Source of the DNA: a bacterium
Lineage (GTDB): Bacteria > Patescibacteriota > Minisyncoccia > UBA6257 > 2-01-FULL-56-20
Reading direction: 5' to 3'
DNA: 38,122 nucleotides
Assembly (NCBI GenBank): GCA_021780195.1
Contig: JAJXZE010000014.1
Coordinates: forward strand, 1-38,122
Below are positions 2,701-10,119 of this stretch, piece by piece. Below the pieces are notes generated by a model. It was not told where the DNA came from and did no database searches. It saw only the letters and a list, made by a program, of their open reading frames with translations. A program made the position numbers and the translations under genes. Position 1 is the first letter of the stretch, and the number at the start of each line of letters is the position of its first letter.

Positions 2701-3239
2701 CCGTCTTCAGCGTCATCATTCTTCTCTCCTGGCTCTTTCTCGTCGCCTACTGGATCATTTCCGCGCGCGGCGCGAAGAAGATGGTTCACCGCGTGGGGCC
2801 GCGACGGTATCTGGGTATTCTTCTCATAGCGGCATGTGCCATTATCTTCCACTCATACGACGGGCACGTTTTTCCGCGCGTTCCATGGGTTGGGGCGCTC
2901 GGCGCAGGGCTTGCCGTGTCCGGCATCGCCTTTGCCGTTTGGGCAAGGCGGTGCCTCGGGAAGAACTGGAGTCCGGTGCCGTCCATCCAGGAGAACCATG
3001 AACTGGTGACGTCGGGACCGTACCGTTTCGTGCGCCACCCGATTTATACGGGCGTCATCGTTGCGCTCATCGGGTCCGCACTCGTGAGCAATCTTCTGTG
3101 GCTCATTATCTGCGCGGCCTTCGCCCTGACCTTTGCGTGGCGGGTGCACGTGGAGGATTCCCTTATGGCGAAACTTTTCCCGCAGGCGTACCCCGCGTAT
3201 CGCGCGAGAACGAAGGCGCTCATCCCGTTTGTCTGGTGA
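2697..3239 (+). CDS. Isoprenylcysteine carboxyl methyltransferase (ICMT)-like membrane protein
   Basis: Multi-TM protein with SGPYRFVRHPIYTGVI motif. Confidence 0.8.
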   Translation: MTVFSVIILLSWLFLVAYWIISARGAKKMVHRVGPRRYLGILLIAACAIIFHSYDGHVFPRVPWVGALGAGLAVSGIAFAVWARRCLGKNWSPVPSIQENHELVTSGPYRFVRHPIYTGVIVALIGSALVSNLLWLIICAAFALTFAWRVHVEDSLMAKLFPQAYPAYRARTKALIPFVW

Positions 3240-8175: not shown

Positions 8176-9501
8176 TCAGCGGGGGAAGTCAAACCTTGCG
8201 AGTTTTCCGAGGGAATTTACGAGATAAAAAGTATTGTCGGAGGGGTTGTAAAGGGGGAGGGTCCCGGTCGCCACGGCCGTGAAGTTCCTGAGGCCGAAAT
8301 CCATGAGGTCGAGGAAGACGACGCGGTCCGGGTAGACCACGAAAAGGTGCGTGCGATCCCCGTACCAGAGAAGCCCCTGCGCTTCCGGGACGTCGGGGAT
8401 GTTGAAACGGCCGTAGGTCATGGCGTCCGTGAAGGGGAAAAGATCCAGACTTCGCGCGCCGAGCGCGCCGAGCGCCGAGCCGTCGTCCGCCACCGCGAAG
8501 GAGCGCACGCCGTCGTCGAGCTTCGTGAATGATTCTCCGTTCACGTCATAGCGCCAGAGCGTGCCGTCGTGCTGGAGCACCGCCACGGCGTCCGTGCCGA
8601 TCCACCGGACCTCCGCGGCCGTTCCGGGAATGGTCGAGGAGCTTCGGGTGACGGTCTGTGCCGCGCGGTCGTAGATGACGAGGGACAATGCGCCGGTTTT
8701 TTCCGCGTATCTCGTCCAGGCAATCGCGGATGGAGCGATCGCGAACGCGCTGCCGAAGACGACGCCCGCGGGCGCGGCGGCGATCACGGTCGTCGTCGCG
8801 CGCGACGCGTCAAAGAGGAAGGCGTGCGACGCATCGAGTGCGAAAATCTGCAAGGCGTTCGCAGGGTCGATCGCCGCGCGCGCGGCGAAGGGGATCGGTA
8901 CGCTGACCGCCGTCGGTGCGACGCCCGCGTTGTCCGCGGAGTTCTCAAAGCGGTAGAGTGTCGCGGCGCCCGTCGTCGCGTCGCGCACGAGCGCGTCCTC
9001 GAGATTTGCTCCGGCGTCGATCAGCGTGCCGTGCGCGATCGTCTTGCCTTGCCACCTGATCGCGTTCGCGGGCGTCTGGACGATCACCGCGCCCCCTCCC
9101 GCAAAATAATTCTTTACGGTGCCGGTCGAGACCGAAGCGGGCACCGCGGGGATGAGCACCGCGTTCTTGAGCGCGGTGACGAGCGCGGGCGTGACCGCCG
9201 CGTTTTCCCGCCAGGGGAGGTAGCCGTCCTTGCCGAGCGCGACTGAGTACGTTCTCGGGAAAAGATTCGAAATAAGCGTCCCCTTGGAAAGGAATCCCGA
9301 TTGATTCTGCACGGGTTTGCCGTCGAGCGTGATCGAGGCATCCGAGGGGAAGGAGCGGAGATAGATCGCGCCCACCTTCTCCGCGCGGAAGGTACCGAAA
9401 TCAAAGCGCCATCCTTCGGCGTAAAGCACGACGGTGGTCCCGATAAGGAGGAAAAGGGCCGTCAGGACGTAAAAAATGGCCCTTCGTGTCCGGCGCGTCA
9501 T
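8176..9501 (-). CDS. PEGA-domain membrane protein with probable beta-propeller
   Basis: MTRRTRRAIFYVLTALFLLIGTTVVLYAEGWRFDF; PEGA-like IYLRSFPSDASITLDGKPVQN; repeated blade-like segments. Start placed at 9501, not 9699. Confidence 0.7.
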   Translation of the reverse strand: MTRRTRRAIFYVLTALFLLIGTTVVLYAEGWRFDFGTFRAEKVGAIYLRSFPSDASITLDGKPVQNQSGFLSKGTLISNLFPRTYSVALGKDGYLPWRENAAVTPALVTALKNAVLIPAVPASVSTGTVKNYFAGGGAVIVQTPANAIRWQGKTIAHGTLIDAGANLEDALVRDATTGAATLYRFENSADNAGVAPTAVSVPIPFAARAAIDPANALQIFALDASHAFLFDASRATTTVIAAAPAGVVFGSAFAIAPSAIAWTRYAEKTGALSLVIYDRAAQTVTRSSSTIPGTAAEVRWIGTDAVAVLQHDGTLWRYDVNGESFTKLDDGVRSFAVADDGSALGALGARSLDLFPFTDAMTYGRFNIPDVPEAQGLLWYGDRTHLFVVYPDRVVFLDLMDFGLRNFTAVATGTLPLYNPSDNTFYLVNSLGKLARFDFPR

Positions 9502-9592
9502 ATGCCCTCGATTGTAGAGGATACATGCTTTTTCCTCAAGTGTCGGCGAGATTGCGCGCCCCGCATTGCCGCCGTGCCGCCGCCGACCATGG

Positions 9593-9752
9593 TATACTCT
9601 AAGTGTCCCGTTGCCAGATCTCGGATCAAGCAATTTAAAAGGGGCAGGCGATAGTACCACGGTCCGTGGATCGCGGTTGAGCCAACCCACATGGCGCAAT
9701 GCCAGAGATCGGACGGGATACCTAAGGCACCGAACTTCGCGTTCGGTGTTTT
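9593..9752 (+). ncRNA. Candidate structured small RNA with own promoter and terminator
   Basis: Extended -10 TGG-TATACT (9593-9598); closing stem GTGTCCCGT(9603-9611)/ACGGGATAC(9713-9721); inner GATCTC/GAGATC; internal hairpins; terminator CACCGAAC-TTCGC-GTTCGGTG-TTTT. Confidence 0.6.
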
Positions 9753-9780
9753 ATGTATCCGCCGCGCTCCGTTGCGCCGC

Positions 9781-10119
9781 CTACGCCATCGCGTCGATCT
9801 TCGCGGCGAGGATAAAGTCGTTCTCGGAAAGTCCGCCGACGGCGTGCGTGTTGAGCTCGAGACGGACCTTGTTATAGAAAACGTGAATGTCGGGGTGGTG
9901 GCCTTCCGCTTCCGCGATCGCGGCGATCTTGTTCACGAAGATCATTGCCGCCGCGAAGTCGGCGAAGGCGAACTCGCGTACGAGGTGCGCCCGATCGGGA
10001 GAGGTCCATCCGGGAACGTCAGCGAGATAATGGTCGACGTGCGCCGCGTCGAGCGGGGGCATGCCGCCTTCGCAGGGGACGCAGTGTTTTTCAAGAAATG
10101 ATTCCTGCGGCTGAGGCAT
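9781..10119 (-). CDS. 4a-hydroxytetrahydrobiopterin dehydratase (PCD/DCoH family)
   Basis: AEGHHPDIHVFYNKVRLELNTHAVGGLSENDFILAAKID. Confidence 0.85.
   Translation of the reverse strand: MPQPQESFLEKHCVPCEGGMPPLDAAHVDHYLADVPGWTSPDRAHLVREFAFADFAAAMIFVNKIAAIAEAEGHHPDIHVFYNKVRLELNTHAVGGLSENDFILAAKIDAMA

Follow-up and report, generated by a model that had tools for sequence, protein, structure and literature searches.

The RNA gene and its surroundings

The window, i.e., the whole stretch of 38,122 nucleotides that was analysed, belongs to a genome of 701 kb which is 98% complete. Between two of its minus-strand genes, at positions 8176-9502 and 9781-10119, lies a gap that holds a gene for a structured RNA on the plus strand, antiparallel to both neighbours. 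The gene at 9781-10119 encodes pterin-4a-carbinolamine dehydratase, and the product of the gene at 8176-9502 has no match to a Pfam family at E 0.001, which leaves unconfirmed the proposal of an earlier note on this DNA that it is a PEGA protein. With its terminator, the RNA gene, which we assign below with high confidence to 6S RNA, spans 9603-9755 on the plus strand, as delimited by matches to three covariance models (R1, R2 and R3, at 9601-9722), by the promoter spacing and by the terminator.

An extended -10 promoter element, TGGTATACT, is present in the gap at 9590-9598 (plus strand), as the earlier note had it, and transcription would start at about 9603-9605. The element is shared by most homologues of the RNA: a perfect -10 hexamer (TATAAT or TATACT) stands just upstream in 64 of 88, and a TG lies ahead of it in 46 of the 80 homologues whose -10 sequence matches at least five of six positions. 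Downstream on the plus strand, fold and sequence indicate an intrinsic terminator, CACCGAAC-TTCGC-GTTCGGTG-TTTT, at 9728-9752, in which CACCGAAC and GTTCGGTG form the hairpin that had already been noted ahead of the TTTT. A terminator-like hairpin is found 3' of the RNA in 42 of 87 homologues, against 1.4 in shuffled sequences. With its own promoter, often its own terminator and usually a single copy, this is a free-standing gene, as are those of 6S RNA (SsrS, Rfam family RF00013).

ARAGORN, run on the window for tmRNA and tRNA genes, returned only a tRNA-Pro. RNase P RNA was rejected as well: RF00010 has no match at this place, and the genome has an RNase P RNA of its own at G000:C2:30822-31230 (L244), whose 70.1 bits are below the Rfam cut-off of 100.

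Conserved structure of the RNA

The region 9601-9757 folds with a predicted energy of -64.5 kcal/mol, which corresponds to a z-score of -4.9 against dinucleotide shuffles and to -3.5 when the terminator is left out; with or without the terminator, the fold is better than that of all 200 of 200 shuffles. A BLASTN seed of 13 homologous loci (L002-L014), found in relatives at E < 0.01 and aligning over much of the RNA, gave together with the window's own sequence a 14-sequence alignment in which 19 of the 31 predicted pairs show double-sided changes. The covariance model built from this alignment, R1, has matches in 135 of 199 related genomes, mostly of the window's order and nearly always in single copy. 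At some loci R1 also matches in antisense; such matches represent the opposite strand of a near-symmetric rod and were excluded from the model alignments. The earlier note had proposed a covariation test on homologues, and the covariation is strong: in an alignment of 88 sequences, which was itself fitted to R1, the score is 0.671, compared with 0.221 for shuffled alignments, and sliding the partners leaves 0.098 or less. Mutual information, which is blind to structure, recovers the same helices.

The outer closing stem of nine base pairs is formed by GTGTCCCGT (9603-9611, plus strand) and ACGGGATAC (9713-9721), with double-sided changes at all five modelled pairs. The inner closing stem joins GATCTCGG (9617-9624, plus strand) to 9702-9710 with one bulged purine, and within it GATCTC (9617-9622) pairs with GAGATC (9705-9710); the 3' strands of the two stems together occupy 9702-9721 on the plus strand, as both covariation and sequence indicate. 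Both stems had been drawn at these places from the sequence, and both covary. The closing stem opens into a central bubble, whose 5' strand, the A/U-rich ATCAAGCAATTTAAAAG (9625-9641, plus strand), is unpaired in the comparative structure, and in the homologues this strand aligns with the bubble gAaaauuuuuauaaua of RF00013. The 3' strand of the bubble, ACATGGCGCAATG (9689-9701, plus strand), corresponds to the 6S core CACCCACCUgg, the consensus of the present family being ACCUGG.

Between the two bubble strands, an apical stem-loop with an internal loop and an upper hairpin closed by a CGUG loop occupies 9642-9688 (plus strand; helices 5-7 of the comparative structure). According to the comparative data, GGG..GGC (9642-9649) pairs with GCC..CCC (9681-9688) and, farther up, ACC.CGGUC (9656-9664) with GAUCG.GGU (9669-9677); these apical helices have 93-99% of their cells paired and contain the strongest APC pairs. 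The conserved pairings differ from the interior hairpins suggested at first (GCGAT/AUCGC with CCACG/CGUGG, and UUG-A-GCCA/UGGC-G-CAA), and on this point the earlier note does not hold. Together with 9701-9704, the 3' bubble strand could fold into a small TGGC/GCCA hairpin, which competes with an extension of the closing stem; in the mutual-information test only the extension has covariation support and the hairpin has none. The 6S RNA of B. subtilis, too, could form such a hairpin in the 3' part of its bubble, and there the central bubble likewise lies between short arms; the native B. subtilis RNA is longer, however, and the competition with an extended closing stem, together with the absence of covariation support, sets the hairpin described here apart. 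The description of the locus as a self-contained structured RNA gene stands, with promoter, closing stem, bubble, apical stem and terminator in place and with homologues and covariation behind it.

Relationship to 6S RNA

When the window was scanned with Rfam, as had been suggested, no RNA match was returned at this place at any threshold, and RF00013 gave none even at E 10. In 31 close genomes there is likewise no RF00013 match over the curated cut-off of 46.4 bits. Against 381 genomes of the phylum, RF00013 gave 32 matches, five of them above the cut-off (48.2-60.2 bits); 29 of the 32, including all five, coincide with places found by R2, and one further match (in genome G513) coincides with R3. 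The agreement of R2 with RF00013 is independent because the training set of R2, the model built from the 88 aligned sequences, was confined to relatives of the window, mostly of its order; R3 was built from a broader set with some RF00013-positive loci included and is not independent evidence. The best match (L172, 60.2 bits) is aligned over the full RF00013 model. Closer to the window, a permissive scan of 20 RNAs of the present family, taken from its order, ranked RF00013 first for four of them, with the correct strand and place; L166, of the same order, scores 31.9 bits (E 5e-4, below the cut-off) and L153, of the same family, 22.7 bits (E 0.08). When 20 loci from across the phylum were scanned, seven further RF00013 matches of up to 42.5 bits appeared, again with the correct strand and place.

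The resemblance extends to the architecture. Like 6S RNA, the RNA has a closing stem, a large A/U-rich central bubble and an apical stem, and the core GGGa..CACCCACCUgg around the bubble is the 6S core; the stretch that corresponds to the Rfam 6S consensus GGGagccc...gggcaCCCACCUgg, bubble included, is the most conserved of the present family. The body, on the other hand, measures 106-147 nt with a median of 120, compared with 180-200 nt in well-studied 6S RNAs, its closing and apical stems are shorter, and the Rfam cut-off, which five members surpass, is not reached by most of the family or by the window's RNA. A length of 180-200 nt is typical of 6S RNA and does not define it: the short body is no obstacle to 6S identity because B. 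subtilis 6S-1 RNAs cut down to 78-82 nt, consisting of the central bubble and short arms, were found to go through the whole polymerase cycle in vitro (PMC8876501). Neither R2 nor R3 matches E. coli ssrS, since both are lineage-bound, and for this reason the Rfam model is the sole bridge to known 6S RNAs. The assignment of the window's RNA, which has no RF00013 match of its own, runs through its homologues.

We consider homology to RF00013 established at the level of sequence and structure, and the element is, with high confidence, the gene of a short, diverged 6S RNA (SsrS) of Patescibacteria for which holoenzyme binding and pRNA synthesis would be expected. It is not a new family: it went unrecognised as 6S RNA only because the Rfam model misses the window's order. 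The hint in the earlier note that a 6S-like RNA might be concerned was therefore right, and its label of an unrecognised family has to be given up, as more distant homologues pass the RF00013 cut-off. That the window has no Rfam match would also fit a new structured RNA with no relation to 6S, or a leader that regulates an adjacent gene in cis, but we regard either as highly improbable given the homology to RF00013; a leader would, moreover, hardly be oriented opposite to both flanking genes and have a promoter and a terminator of its own. In other lineages, the genes close to the RNA are different ones, namely those for RNase P RNA or tRNAs. A pairing of CGGAUCAA with the 5' end of 16S rRNA was dropped, since only 7-8 nt of it are conserved and the 6S match explains the stretch.

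Among 21 genomes (G000 and 20 relatives) we found no SRP RNA (RF00169 and RF01854), no Ffh M domain (0 of 21) and no convincing SRP54-type GTPase (Ffh or FtsY), with controls positive in 10-14 of 14, and the signal recognition particle seems to have been lost in the window's order. A conserved, mostly single-copy RNA might in such a lineage be taken for the missing SRP RNA, a reading to which we give almost no credence: with no Ffh and apparently no FtsY, an SRP RNA would have no protein partner, the apical hairpin has neither the GNRA-type loop nor the internal-loop motif of SRP RNA, and the match is to 6S and not to SRP.

Proposed function

Mimicry of an open promoter and release by pRNA synthesis are established for the 6S RNAs of E. 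coli and B. subtilis (PMC9130861, PMC8876501). By homology, the RNA described here probably mimics an open promoter, in this way binds RNA polymerase holoenzyme with the housekeeping sigma factor, and serves as a template for pRNA. As growth slows, it would keep the holoenzyme off genomic promoters, and synthesis of a pRNA by the polymerase, from the 5' bubble strand into the closing stem, would release it. Aligning the homologues' bubble with that of RF00013 places the putative pRNA start near the 5' edge of the bubble strand 9625-9641, and the strand 9617-9624 would be copied into the pRNA; the predicted product is approximately 5'-(UU)GAUCCGAGAUCUGGCAACGGGAC, with a start uncertain by about 3 nt.

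A 6S-shaped RNA can change its partner, as the precedent of Ms1 demonstrates (PMC9130861): this RNA has a 6S-like shape and binds RNA polymerase, but its partner is the core enzyme, free of sigma, and strictly speaking it does not count as a 6S RNA. The sequence of the present RNA has diverged far from other 6S RNAs, and a 6S derivative with a similarly altered role is conceivable. We nevertheless think it very unlikely, for the family members fit the 6S model itself, including the bubble and the core motif, Ms1 has been described from Actinobacteria only, and nothing ties the window's RNA to it. It is likewise unlikely that Patescibacteria have a short 6S subtype of their own whose mechanism has changed (for example core binding as in Ms1, or no release by pRNA) as an adaptation to host-dependent growth.

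Distribution of the RNA in the phylum

At its curated cut-off, Rfam flags 6S RNA in only five of the 381 sampled phylum genomes. R2 has matches in 146 of the 381 across the phylum and R3 in 165, the remaining 216 having no R3 match. 6S RNA, known as a global brake on transcription, thus occurs in many lineages of the ultra-small Patescibacteria, a phylum among the largest and most reduced in bacteria, and global control of RNA polymerase would thereby be placed in host-dependent bacteria. In the open-licence papers that our literature search covered, we found no report of 6S RNA in Patescibacteria. The covariance models and the short natural 6S RNAs can be used for testing the minimal RNA needed to mimic an open promoter.

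A search with the core pattern found 51 stretches in named genomes, nearly all confirmed by R2, and the bearers include Liptonbacteria, Wolfebacteria, Kaiserbacteria, Saccharibacteria, Woesebacteria and Peribacteraceae. Phage records gave no match to the RNA. The core pattern also occurs in records titled Chlamydiae (L195), Tidjanibacter (L224) and Crocinitomicaceae (L239), of which R2 confirms L195 and L239 and not L224; all three are possibly misbinned contigs of Patescibacteria. Tandem copies were seen in two genomes, G122 (L096:2548-2671 and 2890-3012, minus strand) and G117 (L119:2471-2610 and 2707-2848, plus strand), the second copy of G117 being weak and partial, and are reminiscent of B. 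subtilis, which has two 6S RNAs. Among the 20 phylum-level loci, tRNA genes are often near the 6S gene, and in five (L133, L138, L144, L145 and L150) the gene for RNase P RNA is found at a distance of about 1 kb.
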